47,761 nucleotides of DNA from SAR86 cluster bacterium (GTDB lineage: Bacteria; Pseudomonadota; Gammaproteobacteria; Magnimaribacterales; Magnimaribacteraceae): the NCBI GenBank assembly GCA_022447025.1, contig JAKUUL010000003.1, positions 1 to 47,761 of the forward strand. Direction: 5' to 3'. The notes below the pieces were generated by a model that saw only the letters and a program-made list of their open reading frames with translations, did not search any database and was not told where the DNA came from. Below are positions 489 through 18,517 of this stretch, piece by piece (position 1 is the first letter of the stretch; every line of letters starts with the position of its first letter). A program made the translations under genes and the position numbers.

Positions 489-1363
489 ATGCAAAGGTCT
501 CTCAAGGTAAAAAGTTAAAACAGGCTATTTCTGAAAATACCCCTCTACAAATTGTTGGTACAGTGAATGCGTATTCTTCTCTTTTAGCGGAGAAAAAGGG
601 CCATAAAGCAATTTATCTATCTGGAGGTGGGGTAGCAGCTTCCAGCATGGGTCTTCCTGATCTAGGGATAACTACTTTGCAGGATGTGTTAATCGATGTT
701 GAAAGAATTACTAGCGTATGTGAGTTACCCCTGCTTGTAGATGCTGATACTGGTTGGGGGGGTGCTTTTAATATCTCAAGAATGGTTAAGAGTATGATCA
801 CTTCAGGGGCTGCGGGTATCCATATCGAAGATCAAGTTGAACAAAAAAGATGCGGCCACAGGCCAAATAAAGAACTAGTTTCTTCTGAAGAAATGCAAAA
901 TAGAATAAAAGCAGGGGTAGATGCAAAAACAGACTCTGATTTTATGATTATGGCCAGAACTGATGCCATAGCTAACGAAGGACTTGATTCTGCTTTAGGT
1001 AGGGCAGCTTCTTATGTGGAAGCTGGTGCTGATGCCATCTTTGCGGAAGCCATTACAGAAATTGAAGATTACAAGAAATTTTCAGAAAATTTAAATGTAC
1101 CTATCTTGGCTAACATTACGGAATTTGGTAAAACACCTTTATTCTCAAAGGAAGAGCTAAAAGAGGCAGGTGTCGACATGATTCTCTACCCTTTATCTGC
1201 TTTTAGAGCTATGAGTAAGGCGGCTGAAGGGGTTTATTCAGAGATTCTTGAGAAGGGGACTCAACAGGACTTAATTGATAGAATGCAAACCAGAGATGAA
1301 CTTTATGAAGTACTCGATTATCATACTTTTGAGAAGAAACTTGATGATCTATTTGAAGAGTAG
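485..1363 (+). CDS. prpB: 2-methylisocitrate lyase
   Basis: PrpB cleaves 2-methylisocitrate to pyruvate and succinate, the last step of the methylcitrate cycle for propionyl-CoA disposal in the cytoplasm. The 292-residue length matches the family. Visible motifs are the SGGGVA segment near residues 46-51, the metal-binding VDADTGWGG (85-93) and the catalytic loop KRCGH (121-125, Cys123) that defines the isocitrate lyase/PEP mutase superfamily. The RPNK following the loop fits PrpB rather than isocitrate lyase AceA, which is much longer. The ATG overlaps the thrH stop by 4 bases, and prpC follows after 14 bases. Confidence 0.95.
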
Positions 1364-1377
1364 ACAAGAAAAATAAT

Positions 1378-2502
1378 ATGGCAGAAAAGAAATTAGAAGG
1401 AGCAGGATTAAGGGGGCAGGTAGCTGGCCACACCGCTCTTTCAACTGTTGGAAAGGCAGGAAAAGGTTTGACCTACAGAGGCTATGCTATTGAAGAGTTA
1501 GCAGAAAAAGCCACGTTTGAAGAAGTGGCTTATATGCTCCTTTACGGGCATCTACCAAATCAGTCTGAATACGATGAGTATTCAGCTAAATTAAAATCTT
1601 ATAGAAGGCTTCCTGATGAGCTAAAAGAAGTATTGCAAAGGGTTCCTAAGAGCACTCATCCAATGGACGTGTTGAGAACGGGAAGTTCTATGTTAGGTAA
1701 TTTAGAGCCAGAAGGAGATTTTTCAAATCAAAACGAAACTGCTGACAGAATCTTAGCTGCTATGCCTTCTATTATTACTTATTGGTACCGTTTTTCTCAT
1801 CAAGGTGAAACTATAGAAACAGAGACAGACCATCCTACAATGGGAGGTCAATTTTTATCTTTGCTTACGGGAGAAGAACCTAGTGAAGAACATGCTAGAT
1901 TCCTGGATGTTTCATTAATTCTATATGCTGAGCATGGTTTTAATGCTTCTACTTTTACAGCTAGAATTTGTGCTTCTACTCTTTCAGATATGCATTCATG
2001 TGTTACTGGAGCCATTGGAACCTTAAGAGGACCTCTACATGGAGGGGCTAATGAAGCTGCGATGGAGACTATTGAAAAGTTCTCTTCTAGAGAAGAAGCC
2101 AATGAAGGCATTAAGAAAATGTTAGCAAACAAAGAAAAAATAATGGGATTTGGGCATGCTGTTTATACTAATGAAGATCCTCGAAATAAGATTGTTAAAG
2201 CTTGGGCAAAGAAATTAGGTGAATCAAGTGGGGATAGTCTTCTCTACGAGGTTTCTGAAGAGGTTGAGACTGTTATGACAGAAGAAAAAGATTTATTTGC
2301 TAACACTGATTTTTATATGGCCTCGGCTTATCATTATCTTGGTATTCCAACACCAATTTTTACACCCCTTTTTGTAATAGGTAGGACTTCAGGTTGGACA
2401 GCCAATGTGATGGAACAGAGAGCAGACAACAGAATCATTCGACCCAGTGAAGAATATACCGGCCCTGATAAATCAGAATGGGTCGATATGACTGACCGTT
2501 AA
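1378..2502 (+). CDS. prpC: 2-methylcitrate synthase
   Basis: This citrate-synthase-family enzyme condenses propionyl-CoA with oxaloacetate to give 2-methylcitrate. At 374 residues it has the short form typical of PrpC rather than the longer gammaproteobacterial GltA. Catalytic segments are visible: LHGGANEAAM and GFGHAVYTNEDPRN each carry a key His, and the C-terminal ADNRIIRPS carries the catalytic Asp and CoA/substrate-binding Arg. Context between prpB and prpD supports methylcitrate rather than citrate synthase; side activity with acetyl-CoA is possible in the family. Confidence 0.94.
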   Translation: MAEKKLEGAGLRGQVAGHTALSTVGKAGKGLTYRGYAIEELAEKATFEEVAYMLLYGHLPNQSEYDEYSAKLKSYRRLPDELKEVLQRVPKSTHPMDVLRTGSSMLGNLEPEGDFSNQNETADRILAAMPSIITYWYRFSHQGETIETETDHPTMGGQFLSLLTGEEPSEEHARFLDVSLILYAEHGFNASTFTARICASTLSDMHSCVTGAIGTLRGPLHGGANEAAMETIEKFSSREEANEGIKKMLANKEKIMGFGHAVYTNEDPRNKIVKAWAKKLGESSGDSLLYEVSEEVETVMTEEKDLFANTDFYMASAYHYLGIPTPIFTPLFVIGRTSGWTANVMEQRADNRIIRPSEEYTGPDKSEWVDMTDR

Positions 2503-9954: not shown

Positions 9955-11033
9955 GTAAAAACAAGAAAAGAATACTTATTCTTCCAGGTGATGGTATAGG
10001 CCCTGAAGTTAGTGTTGTTGCCAAAAAACTTTTGGTTTTGTTAGATCAGAAATATTCTTTAGATCTAGAGGTTTCAGAAGGATTGTTGGGAGGAATAGCT
10101 TATGACCAAACTGGGGATCCTCTACCCAAGGAGACTTTAGACAAGGCAAAAGAAAATGAAGCGATACTCTTAGGAGCAGTAGGAGGACCTAAATGGGACC
10201 AGATTTCGTCTGAAAAAAGACCTGAAAAAGGTCTTTTAGGAATGAGATCTGAATTTGATTTCTTTGCAAATCTTAGACCCGCTATCTTATCGAAAGAGCT
10301 TGTCTCAGCTTCAACATTGAAAGAGGAAAAAGTAGCTGATTTAGATTTACTTATCGTTCGTGAATTAACAGGTGGTATTTATTTTGGAGAGCCTAGAGGA
10401 AAGGTTAAGGGCTCAGAAGAAGTCCTTAATACCATGAGATATAGCAAAGATGAAATAACCAGGATAGGAAGGGTGGCGTTTGAAGCAGCCAGAAAAAGGA
10501 GCGGGAAGCTTTGTTCAGTGGACAAAGCTAATGTACTAGAAGTTAGTTCCTTTTGGCGGAATACAATATCTGATCTTTCTCACGAATATCCCGAAGTAGA
10601 ATTAAGCCATATGTTGGTAGATAACGCTGCAATGCAATTAGTAAGAGAACCAAAGCAATTTGATGTCATAGTCACAGAAAACTTATTTGGAGATATCCTT
10701 TCTGATATAGCGGCAATGTTAACAGGCTCTATAGGTATGCTTCCTTCAGCCTCTCTTAACGATACAAACAAAGGTCTCTATGAACCAGTGCATGGATCTG
10801 CACCAGATATAGCCGGTAAGGATTTAGCTAATCCTTTAGCTTCGATCTTGTCCGTTGCCATGATGATGAGATATACCTTCGAAGAAGAAAAAGTGGCTTT
10901 GGCAATTGAACAAGCCGTAGAATCCGTTTTGGCTTTAGGTCAAAGAACCCAAGATATAGCTGGAAAGAAAGATGAAGTTATAGGCACAATTGAAATGGGG
11001 CAACTAGTTTTAAAAGAAATAGAGTCTAACTGA
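9951..11033 (+). CDS. leuB: 3-isopropylmalate dehydrogenase
   Basis: LeuB oxidises and decarboxylates 3-isopropylmalate to 2-ketoisocaproate with NAD+. It has 360 residues, starts with the nucleotide-binding [10 protein letters not shown], and contains the IPMDH segment [14 protein letters not shown] and the C-terminal [15 protein letters not shown]. These separate it from isocitrate dehydrogenase. Its stop shares one base with the asd ATG (TGATG). Confidence 0.97.
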
Positions 11034-12040
11034 TGAAGGAAGCAAAAAATATCGCTGTGGTTGGAGCTACTGGGCTTGTCGGCAAGACTTTCCTTCAATT
11101 ACTTGAATCGGATCATTTTTTAGATTCGGATATCCATTTACTAGCAAGTAAAAAATCAGAAGGTAAAGAAGTTACCTTTAGAAATTCTAATCATATTGTT
11201 GGTTGTTTAGAAAATTTTGATTTTTCTAAAGTTGATTTAGCTTTCTTCTCTGCTGGATCTGAAACTGCTAAAGACTATGCACCTAAAGCTGTTGAACAAG
11301 GATGTTTTGTAGTCGATAACTCTTCATGTTTTAGAAAAGATAAAAACATTCCTTTAATAGTTCCTGAGGTTAATGCGGAAGCTTTACTCGATTACTCAAT
11401 GCCTGGCATAGTAGCTAACCCTAATTGTTCTACAATTCAAATGCTGGTAGCACTCAAGCCTTTGCATGATTTATTTAACATTAACAGAATTGATGTGACT
11501 ACCTTCCAGGCTGTTTCGGGAACTGGAAAATTAGCTCAGGAAGAATTACAACTCCAAATTAAACAAGAGTTACAAGAGGAAAAAACTTCTTCGAATATTT
11601 ATTCTAAACAAATAGCTTTTAATGCTTTACCTCATTGCGGCGATTTCCAGGAAAACTCCTATGCCTTTGAAGAAATGAAAATGGTTTGGGAGACTCATAG
11701 AATTCTCGATCCTAATATAGAAATAGCAGCCACTTGTGTAAGAGTGCCAGTAATGAATGGCCATTCAGAATCTGTACATATTGAAACGACCGAACAAATA
11801 AATATCGATACAGTTAAAGACTGTTTGAATGAAGCCAAAGGCATCAAGCTAGCCGACGGTGAAGGTTCGGAAAGTTATGAAACCGCTTTAGAGATAGATG
11901 GAACAGACTTAGTGCATGTGGGTAGGCTTAGAATGGATCTTTGGAATACTAAAAGGCTTAATTTATGGATAGTCGCAGACAACTTGAGAAAAGGGGCTGC
12001 CTTAAATAGTATCCAAATTGCTGAAATACTGTTCGTTTAG
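11033..12040 (+). CDS. asd: Aspartate-semialdehyde dehydrogenase
   Basis: Asd reduces aspartyl phosphate to aspartate semialdehyde with NADPH, the step after LysC on the way to Lys, Thr, Met and diaminopimelate. The 335-residue protein starts with GATGLVG (NADP binding) and has the catalytic Cys132 in NPNCSTIQ. Position between leuB and the FimV-like gene matches Pseudomonas-type gene order. The single-base TGATG overlap with leuB suggests reinitiation. Confidence 0.96.
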   Translation: MKEAKNIAVVGATGLVGKTFLQLLESDHFLDSDIHLLASKKSEGKEVTFRNSNHIVGCLENFDFSKVDLAFFSAGSETAKDYAPKAVEQGCFVVDNSSCFRKDKNIPLIVPEVNAEALLDYSMPGIVANPNCSTIQMLVALKPLHDLFNINRIDVTTFQAVSGTGKLAQEELQLQIKQELQEEKTSSNIYSKQIAFNALPHCGDFQENSYAFEEMKMVWETHRILDPNIEIAATCVRVPVMNGHSESVHIETTEQINIDTVKDCLNEAKGIKLADGEGSESYETALEIDGTDLVHVGRLRMDLWNTKRLNLWIVADNLRKGAALNSIQIAEILFV

Positions 12041-12077
12041 TTTCTATGAAAATTGATCTATTGATCGAAATATAGAA

Positions 12078-12404
12078 ATGAATTTTGAAACTTTGACCGG
12101 ATTCTCCTTTCATGGGTTAGTTGGAATCATTGTAGGTCTAATAGTTTTTTCACTTTTATTGTTTTTGATCAGGTATGAAAAGAAAGCTAAAGAGACCTTT
12201 AATTTTAAAGATAGCAATCTAAGTGAAGTTGGTGACCCTATAGAGGCAAATATAAATTTAGCTAGAAGTTTGATAGAAATGAAAGAAATTGATAAAGCAG
12301 ATGAGTGCATAAAAAAAGTGGAATTCAATAAGGACTTGAGTCTAGAACAACGAGAAAAAATAAATATTCTTAAAGATAAAATAACAGAAAATAAGAATGG
12401 CTAA
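12078..12404 (+). CDS. Minimal FimV-like membrane protein (TM helix plus FimV C-terminal domain)
   Basis: A 108-residue protein between asd and truA, where gammaproteobacteria usually carry fimV (often 600-900 residues; polar hub protein of type IV pili and twitching). Here I see one transmembrane helix (about residues 12-31) and, from residue 53, DPIEANINLARSLIEMKEIDKADECIKKV, which resembles the FimV C-terminal domain consensus. The periplasmic LysM region, coiled coil and acidic cytoplasmic TPR repeats are absent. It is therefore either a reduced FimV or a stand-alone copy of its C-terminal domain. It overlaps truA by 8 bases. Function here is unknown. Confidence 0.72.
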   Translation: MNFETLTGFSFHGLVGIIVGLIVFSLLLFLIRYEKKAKETFNFKDSNLSEVGDPIEANINLARSLIEMKEIDKADECIKKVEFNKDLSLEQREKINILKDKITENKNG

Positions 12405-13188
12405 AAAAATCTTTCGAATAGCTCTTGGAATTGAATATGAAGGAACAGCTTATAAAGGGTTTCAAAAACAAAAAAGTACAAAAAAAACTGTACAGGGCCT
12501 ATTAGACTCTGCTTTAAGCAAGGTAGCTAATCAGCAAATATTGACTGCATGCAGTGGAAGAACTGATGCGGGTGTGCATGCCTACTGTCAAACGATACAT
12601 TTTGATACTACTTCGTTAAGGGAGGTTAAGTCTTGGATCAACGGGGGTAATGCTTTACTTCCAAAAGATATAAGAATTCTATGGGCAAAACGAGTTTCCA
12701 GTGATTTTCATTCTAGGTTCTCAGCTTTATCAAGAACTTATCGTTACATTATACGAAACTCTGAACTTCCTTCGGCTTTAGATAGGAATAAAAAATTGTG
12801 GGTTAGAGAAAAGTTAGACTTGAGAAATATGAGGAGGGCCTCCTCTTACCTAATAGGTGAAAAAGATTTTTCTTCTTTTCGATCTTCTTCTTGTCAATCA
12901 AAAAGCCCAAATAGAAATATTCGTTCAATAAATATTAAGAAAAAAGGAGATTTGTTATTTATCGATATAAGCGCAAATGCCTTTTTATTAAATATGGTTA
13001 GAATAATTACAGGAACACTTTTAGAAACAGGATTAAAAAAGATACCACCTAAAAGAGTCAAAGAAATTCTAGACGCTAAAGACAGAACGCTCGCTGGAAA
13101 AACCGCCTCTCCTAATGGCCTGTATTTCGTTGGCGCTGAATATTTAAAGAAATATGAAGTTCCTAACATTTCAAATTCTGTTATCTAA
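12397..13188 (+). CDS. truA: tRNA pseudouridine(38-40) synthase
   Basis: TruA converts uridines 38-40 in the tRNA anticodon arm to pseudouridine. At 263 residues it has family length. The catalytic Asp57 is in CSGRTDAGVHA, and the later segments RTYRYII and NAFLLNMVRIITG are typical of TruA. It overlaps the FimV-like gene by 8 bases, and 51 bases separate it from trpF. Confidence 0.95.
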   Translation: MAKKIFRIALGIEYEGTAYKGFQKQKSTKKTVQGLLDSALSKVANQQILTACSGRTDAGVHAYCQTIHFDTTSLREVKSWINGGNALLPKDIRILWAKRVSSDFHSRFSALSRTYRYIIRNSELPSALDRNKKLWVREKLDLRNMRRASSYLIGEKDFSSFRSSSCQSKSPNRNIRSINIKKKGDLLFIDISANAFLLNMVRIITGTLLETGLKKIPPKRVKEILDAKDRTLAGKTASPNGLYFVGAEYLKKYEVPNISNSVI

Positions 13189-15860: not shown

Positions 15861-16724
15861 ATGGCCAATTGGTTTGACAAGATTCTTCCCTCTTTTATAA
15901 AGAAAGGGAGCACAAAAAAGTCATCTGTACCAGAAGGCTTGTGGCAGACATGTTCAGGCTGTAATAACGTGCTTTATGTTCCTGAACTTGAGGCTAGTCT
16001 TTATGTTTGTCCTAAATGTGATCACCACGTCAGGATTGGTGCAAGAAAAAGGTTAGATTTGTTCTTGGATTCAGAAAATCAGATAGAGATCGCATCAAAT
16101 GTAAGCCCTACAGACTGGCTTAAGTTTAAAGATACTAAACGTTATAAAGATAGGATTACTGAAGCGGAGAGTAACAGTGATGAAAATGAAGCTATTGTTG
16201 TTAAGCAAGGTACTTTATTAAAACTTCCATTGGTTGCAGCAGCCTTTGAGTTCAGATTCATGGGGGGTTCAATGGGGTCAGTAGTTGGCCAAAAATTTGT
16301 AGAAGGGGTCAACCAAGCACTAAATAATCAACTTCCTTTCGTTTGTTTTTCAACCAGCGGAGGAGCCAGAATGCAAGAATCTTTGGTTTCTCTTTATCAA
16401 ATGGCAAAGACTAGTGCTGTTCTTCAAAAGTTGAAAGAGGCAGGCCAGCCATATATATCTATTATGATTGATCCAATTTACGGAGGAGTTGCAGCAAGTT
16501 TAGCTATGCTAGGAGATATCAATATAGCTGAACCTAAAGCACTAGTAGGCTTCACCGGACCCAGGGTAATAGAACAAACTTTAAAAGTTCAATTGCCGGA
16601 AGGGTTTCAAAGAAGTGAATTTTTATTGGATCATGGTGCTATAGATATGATTGTGCACCGAAAGGATCTTCAATCAACAGTTCATAGGCTGCTTTTAAAT
16701 CTTCTTGATAAACCTTCAAGTTAA
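15861..16724 (+). CDS. accD: Acetyl-CoA carboxylase carboxyltransferase subunit beta
   Basis: AccD forms the carboxyltransferase half of acetyl-CoA carboxylase with AccA and makes malonyl-CoA for fatty acid synthesis. The 287-residue protein has the N-terminal zinc ribbon (Cys31, Cys34, Cys50, Cys53) and the crotonase-like core with [11 protein letters not shown] and [13 protein letters not shown]. It follows trpA by 2 bases and overlaps folC by one base (TAATG). AccD between trpA and folC is classic gammaproteobacterial order. Confidence 0.97.
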
Positions 16725-17995
16725 TGTCCAAAGAGAACTCGTTAGAATATTGGTTAGATTACATCCAAGCGGTAGGACCAAAAGAAATAGATTTGGGACT
16801 CCAAAGGATAAAACCCATTTATGAACAATTAATAAAATCTAAAATTGCTTCTAAAGTTATAGTTGTAGGAGGTACTAATGGAAAGGGTACAACTACGGAG
16901 TTTTTAGGCCAACTTTTAGTTTCAAAGCATAAGATCGTTGGTACCTTCACTTCACCACATTTATTCAATTTCAATGAAAGGATAAAAATAAATGGCAAGC
17001 CGGTTTCTGATGAAAGCATAGTTGAAAGCTTTAAATTAATTGAAGAAAGCAGGGGTTCTACTAATCTTACATATTTTGACTTTTCTACTTTGGCCGCTTT
17101 ACTTATTTTCAATAAATCTAATGTTGACTATATGGTGTTAGAAATTGGGCTTGGTGGAAGGTTAGATCCTGTAAATATTGTAGATTCAGATATTGCAATT
17201 TTAACTAATGTTGAATTGGATCATCAAGATTGGTTAGGAGAAGATAGAGAGTCAATTGGAAAGGAGAAAGCAGATATTTTTAAACTTCATAAGCCAGTAA
17301 TCATTGGACAACATGAAGTTCCAAATAGTGTCCATGAGAAGATTTTAGAAACTAAAAATCAGACTTTTTGCGTTGGTAAAGAGTTTGATTATCAGGTAGA
17401 CGATTCAAACAAAAAATGGACTTTTACTTTTAAAGGGGAAAGACAAGTTTCTTATGCAGATATTAAGTTGAATAGTTTTTCGGTGAGCAGCATTTCATGT
17501 GCTCTTGCTGCTTTTTGTCTTTTAGAAGAAGAGGTAAGTTTAGATATGGATGTCGTTTTTAACTCACTAGATTTAAAAGGCCGTTGTGAACTTATAGATA
17601 ACAGATATCTTCTAGATGTTAGCCATAATGAATCATCGGCAAGGTTTCTTTCATCTTTTATAGAAAGGAATTTTGAAGATGGAACGGTAATAAATGCGGT
17701 TTTTGGAGTTATGGAAGACAAGGATGTTAATTCGATCCTTGAACCATTAGCAACCAGAATTAATAAATGGTATGTAACTTCTGCAGATATAGAACGTTCT
17801 ATGGCTACCGAAAAACTGGGAGATATCATTAATTCTAAATATCCTAAAGATATGGAGCTTGTTGGAAGTGTTAAGGAGGCCTGTATGAAAGCCCAAGAAG
17901 AAACTGAAGAAGAAGGCTTGATTCTAATCTTTGGTTCTTTTTATACAGTTTCAGAAGCTTTCCCTGCTTTAAAATTATTAAGATCAGTTGCTTAA
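16724..17995 (+). CDS. folC: Bifunctional folylpolyglutamate / dihydrofolate synthase
   Basis: FolC adds glutamate to dihydropteroate and folates with ATP. The 423-residue protein has the Mur-ligase-type P-loop GTNGKGTT (residues 50-57), the FTSPHL segment (omega loop region), EIGLGGRLDPVN and TNVELDHQDWLG. The C-terminal domain follows the DVSHNE segment. Its stop is directly followed by the cvpA ATG; the dedD (SPOR domain) gene often found here is missing. Confidence 0.95.
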   Translation: MSKENSLEYWLDYIQAVGPKEIDLGLQRIKPIYEQLIKSKIASKVIVVGGTNGKGTTTEFLGQLLVSKHKIVGTFTSPHLFNFNERIKINGKPVSDESIVESFKLIEESRGSTNLTYFDFSTLAALLIFNKSNVDYMVLEIGLGGRLDPVNIVDSDIAILTNVELDHQDWLGEDRESIGKEKADIFKLHKPVIIGQHEVPNSVHEKILETKNQTFCVGKEFDYQVDDSNKKWTFTFKGERQVSYADIKLNSFSVSSISCALAAFCLLEEEVSLDMDVVFNSLDLKGRCELIDNRYLLDVSHNESSARFLSSFIERNFEDGTVINAVFGVMEDKDVNSILEPLATRINKWYVTSADIERSMATEKLGDIINSKYPKDMELVGSVKEACMKAQEETEEEGLILIFGSFYTVSEAFPALKLLRSVA

Positions 17996-18517
17996 ATGAT
18001 TGCAATAGATTGGATTTCTTTGGCTTTAATTGGAGCTCTAGGAATCTCAGGTTTTTTCAATGGCTTTGCCAAAGAAATTTCTTCTGCTATCGCTTGGGTA
18101 GTATCAATAGTTGGAGCATGGTATTTTGGCCCCTTGCTTTTTCCATACTTAGAAGCCTATTTAAGCAATGTTCAAGTTAAGTCTATCGCTTCATTTATAG
18201 TTGTTTTTATTATTTTGTTTGCTCTAGTAAGGTTAGCTGGTTCGATACTTTCTAAATTTCTCAGTGCCATCGGATTAGGTTTTTTAGATAAAGGTTTAGG
18301 CTTCTTTTTTGGTGCAACAAAAGCAACTGCAATTTTGGTTACTGTATTTATATTATCTTCAGGATTTTTAGAAAATAAAAGCTGGTGGAATGAATCTTTA
18401 TCTAAAGAGTGGACCACAAGAATTGCTGAGGTGATGGAGCCATTAATTAAGGACTGGAAAGCTCAAGCTGAAATTTTGTTAAACAAAGGGAATGTAACTT
18501 TCCCGCCGAAGTTATAA
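17996..18517 (+). CDS. cvpA: CvpA family inner-membrane protein
   Basis: A 173-residue membrane protein with about four hydrophobic helices and the CvpA-type start (DWISLALIGALGISGFFNGFAKE). CvpA is needed for colicin V export in E. coli, and the family has been linked to envelope stress; its molecular function is not settled. The position just upstream of purF is the conserved gammaproteobacterial location and supports the call. It begins one base after the folC stop. Confidence 0.9.
   Translation: MIAIDWISLALIGALGISGFFNGFAKEISSAIAWVVSIVGAWYFGPLLFPYLEAYLSNVQVKSIASFIVVFIILFALVRLAGSILSKFLSAIGLGFLDKGLGFFFGATKATAILVTVFILSSGFLENKSWWNESLSKEWTTRIAEVMEPLIKDWKAQAEILLNKGNVTFPPKL

Follow-up and report, generated by a model that had tools for sequence, protein, structure and literature searches.

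What remains of a FimV/HubP protein when its gene is shortened to little more than 100 codons, and why would such a gene be kept? This question is raised by a small open reading frame (ORF) located between asd and truA in a 47,761-nucleotide stretch of DNA from a SAR86 cluster bacterium, hereafter called the window. FimV/HubP has been studied as an organizer of pili and flagella, and its best conserved part is the C-terminal FimV domain. An earlier reading of the window, made from its sequence only, had proposed that the ORF is a remnant of FimV and that, if this remnant is selected for, its C-terminal domain would have a core function independent of pili, perhaps as a polar or partner-docking module. 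As detailed below, this interpretation as a whole is partly supported. We refer to the encoded protein and its short relatives as mini-FimV.

The ORF and its start site

The placement of the ORF between asd and truA, its single membrane helix and its DPIEANINLARSLIEM motif, all described in the sequence-only reading, were confirmed in the window (Table 1). The ORF is not a chance occurrence, as evident by purifying selection and by orthologs of 110 to 119 amino acids at the corresponding position in 28 family (f1) genomes, the window's own genome included. The reported length of 108 residues is correct for the frame that can be read in the window, but this is a shortened length when compared to these orthologs. 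Relatives from the same genus carry proteins of 119 amino acids that begin approximately 11 codons earlier, at a position where the window retains an ATG. However, the window carries GAAATATAG where the relative at locus L032 carries GAAAATATAG, and this one-base deletion in a run of A nucleotides (12068-12070) causes the frame from the earlier ATG to close at a TAG codon. The readable start, two bases past this TAG, is therefore an internal methionine codon. The deletion could be either real or an assembly error, and it affects neither the membrane helix nor the C-terminal domain of the window copy. The genome concerned (1.23 Mb in 123 contigs) is 74% complete, and its nearest public relatives are the SAR86 metagenome-assembled genomes REDSEA-S09_B4 and ALOHA_A2.5_133.

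Table 1. Features of the mini-FimV locus, in window coordinates.
Feature	Coordinates	Strand	Basis or remark
mini-FimV ORF as readable in the window	12078..12404	+	108 aa, ATG to TAA; orthologs found
Membrane helix, residues 11-38	12108..12191	+	predicted structure
FimV C-terminal (TPR3-like) three-helix domain, residues 51-107	12228..12398	+	model, profiles, fold
Conserved core of the C-terminal domain, residues 51-82	12228..12323	+	conservation, dN/dS
Former start region, from the ATG (12046) at the start position of relatives to TAG (12073-12075)	12046..12075	+	window compared with L032
Frame-change site, GAAATATAG, one A short of GAAAATATAG in relatives	12067..12075	+	window compared with L032
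asd, upstream neighbor	11033..12040	+	gene order
truA, downstream neighbor, 8-base overlap with the ORF	12397..13188	+	gene order

The hydrophobic stretch that forms the membrane helix is conserved in an alignment of all f1 orthologs. It is followed by a series of mostly basic residues (R-Y-E-K-K-A-K), which by the positive-inside rule would place the N terminus outside and the C terminus in the cytoplasm, as in FimV. Only about 14 residues link the helix to the C-terminal domain.

Elsewhere in the window (positions 16724-18517), no gene lies between folC (16724-17995) and a cvpA-like gene (17996-18517), after which comes a purF-like gene. The dedD/SPOR gene that usually separates folC and cvpA in Gammaproteobacteria is absent from this place in the window.

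Identity as a reduced FimV/HubP

The FimV C-terminal model TIGR03504, whose use had been proposed as a check, yields only 13.2 bits (E 0.068) for the window protein, which is far below the cut-off of 30.65 bits, and the other f1 minis tested likewise remain below this value. A Pfam search with the window protein returned nothing but weak, generic TPR matches. By the refuting criterion that the sequence-only reading had set, a missing match to the FimV C-terminal model, the window protein fails on its own, and a match is reached only by way of relatives, profiles and fold. Identification must therefore rest on other evidence, namely position, intermediates, profiles and fold. The C-terminal model does pass its cut-off with longer SAR86 relatives and with some minis of other lineages.

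The gene order leuD-leuB-asd-X-truA-trpF-trpB is conserved across SAR86 families f1, f2 and f3. The X proteins of f3 genera g9 and g17 comprise 296 to 440 amino acids and exceed the cut-offs for both the FimV core (TIGR03505) and the FimV C terminus, and two such proteins that were tested score 61.1 and 55.5 bits with the core model and 42.2 and 36.6 bits with the C-terminal model. The X protein of f2 genus g15 (402 amino acids) exceeds the cut-off for the core and reaches 23.5 bits with its C terminus. The window protein is 45% identical to the C-terminal end of the g17 form (E 5.5e-11). Gene order and these similarities identify the ORF as the positional ortholog of fimV/hubP, vertically descended from a full-length FimV.

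Profile and fold comparisons point in the same direction. A profile of the C-terminal domain built from 12 f1 family members has as its best single-stretch match in the PDB the TPR3 domain of Pseudomonas aeruginosa FimV (4MAL; 50 positions, E 3.7e-8), and its hhalign comparison with FimV C-terminal domains from outside SAR86 gives a probability of 98.7% (E 3e-16). Structure prediction, conducted with a shallow three-row alignment of the window, L032 and L033 sequences, yields the membrane helix plus three confident helices at residues 54-67, 71-82 and 89-107. When this predicted fold was compared by Foldseek with 350,542 PDB chains, the first match was again FimV TPR3 (4MAL, probability 0.99), and alignment with 4MBQ gives a target TM score of 0.83 and an rmsd of 1.6 Å. 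The Foldseek E-values of the FimV TPR3 matches are weak (0.3 to 0.9), a common outcome with domains of approximately 50 residues.

The proposal that the ORF is a FimV remnant is thus borne out by position, intermediates, family profile and fold, whereas the statement that it retains nothing of the TPR repeats must be revised, given that the DPIEANINLARSLIEM motif corresponds to the first helix of the three-helix, TPR-like FimV TPR3 domain. The absence of LysM was correctly noted: the FimV core (TIGR03505) is missing from the ORF, and no f1 genome carries a FimV core match that might represent a full-length FimV elsewhere. The protein therefore is a reduced derivative rather than a complete FimV. 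The long acidic cytoplasmic region is likewise absent from the window ORF. What is left, on the evidence of these comparisons, is a FimV/HubP reduced to a single membrane helix plus the FimV domain (TPR3) at its C terminus.

Retention and selection

The mini form that was sought in relatives is found at all 28 f1 loci available, counting the window's own. Seven of the 35 f1 genomes yield no mini-FimV match. Six of these also lack truA, and in the seventh (G010) truA starts at base 75 of its contig. The locus is therefore simply not assembled in these genomes, and we reject gene loss as the explanation.

A dN/dS analysis, suggested earlier to evaluate whether the remnant is selected for, revealed purifying selection. 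Median pairwise values by f1 genus range from 0.11 to 0.27 for mini-FimV, compared with 0.06 to 0.11 for asd and approximately 0.12 for truA. By region (ten pairs), the values are 0.10 for the core of the C-terminal domain (residues 51-82), 0.12 for the linker, 0.21 for the membrane helix and 0.43 for the tail, such that the core is constrained to an extent similar to asd and truA. Sequence conservation among f1 proteins peaks at the same core residues. A functioning docking domain would be expected to show this pattern, which does not resemble that of a freely decaying relic. The 8-base overlap with truA, which had been offered as an argument for translation, is present in the window but is not general among relatives: it measures 8 bases in genera g1 and g4 and 11 to 14 bases in g3, and in most g6 genomes and in g12 the two genes are instead separated by a gap. 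The dN/dS values are therefore better evidence of translation than an overlap that is not conserved.

Repeated reduction inside and outside SAR86

A survey for the FimV core found 64 positive genomes, with none from f1, f4, g12 or g13. In a concatenated seven-gene tree of SAR86, f2 groups with f4 (bootstrap 85) and f3 lies beside f1 (62). Within f3, the earliest branch is g13 (98), and g12 forms the sister group of g9 plus g17 (100), the two genera that retain full-length FimV with its core. Mapped on this tree, the LysM core was lost separately in f1, f4, g12 and g13, or about four times. This count assumes losses only, and falls to a minimum of three when f1 and f4 are forced together. The N terminus that precedes the membrane helix differs among the reduced forms (approximately 25 to 30 residues in f1, 8 in g12, and 30 to 60 in f4), whereas the C terminus is the same.

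Family f4 has kept the mini form at all 14 loci examined. At these loci (L044-L046 and L120-L130), the gene lies between an aroC-like gene, seen in L044-L046, and truA; the asd-leu genes have moved away and mini-FimV has stayed with truA.

Genus g13 presents a different solution. There the C terminus of Asd carries the FimV C-terminal domain as an in-frame fusion that lacks a membrane helix. The fusion is a 406-amino-acid frame in all three loci read (L040, L041 and L118) and is reported for seven genomes. Its tail passes the TIGR03504 cut-off with 33.7 bits. The fusion protein is presumably soluble, and an internal start within the 406-amino-acid frame is possible.

Most of the Gammaproteobacteria sampled outside SAR86 carry FimV frames of 500 to 1400 amino acids. 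However, stand-alone minis of approximately 110 to 120 amino acids occur in G301 (46.2 bits) and in G199 and G337 (42.9 bits for G337), where they occupy the asd-X-truA position or lie immediately before truA. The LysM core was thus lost again outside SAR86. Forms of 223 to 319 amino acids without a visible LysM part are present in G403, G291 and G177. In the 1.0 Mb genome G391 (L081/L116), a 100-amino-acid frame on the strand opposite to truA resembles the FimV C-terminal domain (29.2 bits, below the cut-off).

Some FimV core matches lie in other protein contexts. At locus L135 (G107:C14, positions 609-1739, minus strand), a FimV core and an MlaA lipoprotein domain (PF04333, E 1.3e-66) are joined in one protein, which places an N-terminal part of FimV on a protein of outer-membrane lipid asymmetry. 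Similar second core matches occur in G115, G063 and G096; the fusion partner was read in L135 only. In f2, single-helix proteins of 207 to 216 amino acids with a FimV-core-like C-terminal end are encoded on the minus strand at L136 (1509-2198) and L137 (1403-2062). The adjoining gene encodes a sigma-70-like factor (region 2 match in L136), and the single-helix protein resembles an anti-sigma factor equipped with a wall-sensing domain.

Machines and candidate clients in SAR86

Among 151 SAR86 genomes, none carries FlhA and none has a PilT match over the cut-off. The search for type IV pilus genes in relatives, suggested by the sequence-only reading, thus agrees with its view that the C-terminal domain is used independently of pili, as the mini form persists without pilus genes. 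Matches that might be taken for PilQ and PilT are GspD and GspE of a type II secretion system, and were rejected as evidence of pili; the GspD-like frames are mostly 600 to 650 amino acids and the GspE-like frames 430 to 530 amino acids, and the two are adjacent (L138). The single SAR86 PilQ match over the cut-off (G006:C102, L133) lies on a 4.9 kb contig with 40% GC, compared with approximately 35% at the mini-FimV locus, and this contig is probably foreign. A second pilus-like cluster is found on a small contig (G085:C29, L134). Both clusters, which are of the PilQ/PilB kind, probably represent bin contamination.

Several other candidates were considered. GspD and GspE are found side by side in most SAR86 genomes outside f1, but both are missing at the thresholds used from 26 of the 35 f1 genomes, which exceeds the effect of incompleteness. 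ParB is present in all 39 genomes of at least 90% completeness, and was rejected as a client indicator because a universal protein is uninformative. A GGDEF protein occurs in 66 of the 151 SAR86 genomes, always in one copy and also in the genome of the window. It was rejected as a general client because only 12 of the 35 f1 genomes have one. Across the genomes surveyed, neither FlhA, PilT, the type II secretion system, ParB nor GGDEF tracks the mini form.

Proposed function and alternative explanations

Clients of HubP and FimV are considered to bind mainly through the C-terminal FimV domain, and in Shewanella the FimV domain of HubP both binds the phosphodiesterase PdeB and activates it (PMC9061725). 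The partner-docking role proposed earlier corresponds to the known job of this domain in HubP/FimV (PMC12918733, PMC9061725). We propose that mini-FimV is a fimV/hubP ortholog reduced to a membrane-tethered client-docking module, to which we assign a probability of roughly 0.7, and which is the most likely way for the protein to work. A short periplasmic N terminus and one membrane helix would present the cytoplasmic FimV (TPR3) domain, with the LysM core that binds peptidoglycan, the acidic linker of the cytoplasmic part and any further TPRs having been lost. The three-helix domain might then bind, and perhaps activate, a client at the inner face of the membrane, which may be one old, putative client outside pili and flagella. 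Polar targeting, also suggested at first, is doubtful because the peptidoglycan-binding LysM part is gone. Several findings speak against the docking explanation: the FimV C-terminal model misses its cut-off with the window protein and the other f1 minis tested, loss of the FimV domain has little consequence for swimming in P. putida and S. putrefaciens (PMC12918733), GGDEF proteins, which are the best-known kind of client, occur in only 12 of the 35 f1 genomes, ParB is universal and so uninformative, the g13 domain has no membrane helix at all, and the copy in the window has lost one base in its 5′ end.

This deletion, together with the rapidly evolving tail (dN/dS 0.43) and the overlap with truA in some genera, could instead indicate a decaying relic, a functionless stub left as streamlining strips fimV, or one that only carries ribosomes into truA. 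We consider such decay unlikely, since the core evolves as slowly as asd and truA, the gene is kept at every f1 and f4 locus available or examined, the truA overlap is not conserved, and the same part survives in about four separate reductions, with g13 keeping the domain by fusion to Asd. FimV also supports the type II secretion system in Pseudomonas, and a remnant serving this system would be compatible with the adjacent GspD and GspE genes outside f1; however, most of the f1 genomes that lack these genes carry the mini form, making this explanation improbable. That the ORF encodes an unrelated small TPR membrane protein (similar to LapB or YfgM), placed between asd and truA by chance, is the least probable reading. 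It could draw on a weak resemblance to LapB, seen in the fold comparison and in the profile match of one ortholog, and on the weak generic TPR matches, but it is disfavored by the locus position, by the FimV-core intermediates in sister genera, and by the fact that the best profile and fold matches are to FimV TPR3.

A more specific possibility is that mini-FimV docks a diguanylate cyclase or phosphodiesterase, as in the HubP-PdeB pair of Shewanella, and activates the cell's only GGDEF protein. Binding between GGDEF and FimV domains is known (PMC9061725), and one GGDEF protein is exactly what is found in each SAR86 genome that has any, including that of the window. However, the scarcity of GGDEF proteins in f1 extends to the nearest relatives (G001-G003, 86-93% complete), which lack GGDEF and yet have the mini form, so we regard this explanation as quite unlikely, somewhat more so than decay.

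Retention of the C-terminal domain of mini-FimV without pili or flagella indicates a use independent of both. Loss of both machines and of the rest of the protein, with the domain kept several times, suggests that the domain has another client, and its job is probably older than service to pili and flagella. We tentatively extend this to a broader proposal, whose chances we judge to be slightly below even. The FimV domain would have an old, general gammaproteobacterial function that needs neither pili, flagella, peptidoglycan binding nor, in one lineage, a membrane anchor. Selection would keep this function, so that streamlined lineages repeatedly reach the same minimal unit, and full-length FimV/HubP would be this unit plus polar targeting and extra client sites. 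The FimV domain can give weak phenotypes in swimming: its deletion hardly affects P. putida and only mildly affects S. putrefaciens (PMC12918733), and its importance is therefore client-specific.

Mini-FimV is a new, extreme FimV variant. Our literature search, which was incomplete in its coverage, found no mention of SAR86 together with FimV and no description of a stand-alone FimV C-terminal domain, and the NCBI naming model would label the better-scoring stand-alone domains as members of the FimV/HubP family. What is surprising is that reduction has led repeatedly to the same unit, and that this unit has been fused to Asd. A minimal construct of approximately 110 residues, with which clients could be sought by pull-down, occurs naturally in SAR86 and its relatives, and the Asd fusion provides a test of whether a membrane anchor is necessary.

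Comparison with known systems

The FimV proteins of P. aeruginosa and P. putida (TIGR03505 core, TIGR03504 C terminus) share with mini-FimV the single membrane helix and the C-terminal TPR3 domain to which profile and fold match (4MAL, 4MBQ), and the Pseudomonas fimV locus also lies between asd and truA. Unlike these proteins, mini-FimV has no signal peptide, LysM, immunoglobulin-like part, acidic cytoplasmic region or second TPR, it measures 108 to 119 amino acids rather than the 500 to 1400 of the frames in most Gammaproteobacteria sampled, and in SAR86 there are no pili or flagella for it to serve. In Vibrio and Shewanella, HubP likewise carries a FimV domain behind a membrane helix, and this domain binds clients such as PdeB. 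However, because mini-FimV lacks LysM and the acidic repeats, peptidoglycan-based polar recruitment of the HubP type is not expected, and because SAR86 has no FlhA, neither are flagellar clients. The nearest full homologs are the medium-length SAR86 FimV proteins of f3 genera g9 and g17 and of f2, which share the locus and a C-terminal domain that is up to 45% identical, but which keep a signal peptide and the FimV core (296-440 amino acids in g9 and g17, locus frames of 402-502 amino acids in f2). The Asd-FimV fusion of f3 genus g13 carries the same domain in the same place, and differs from mini-FimV by its attachment to Asd and by the absence of a membrane helix.
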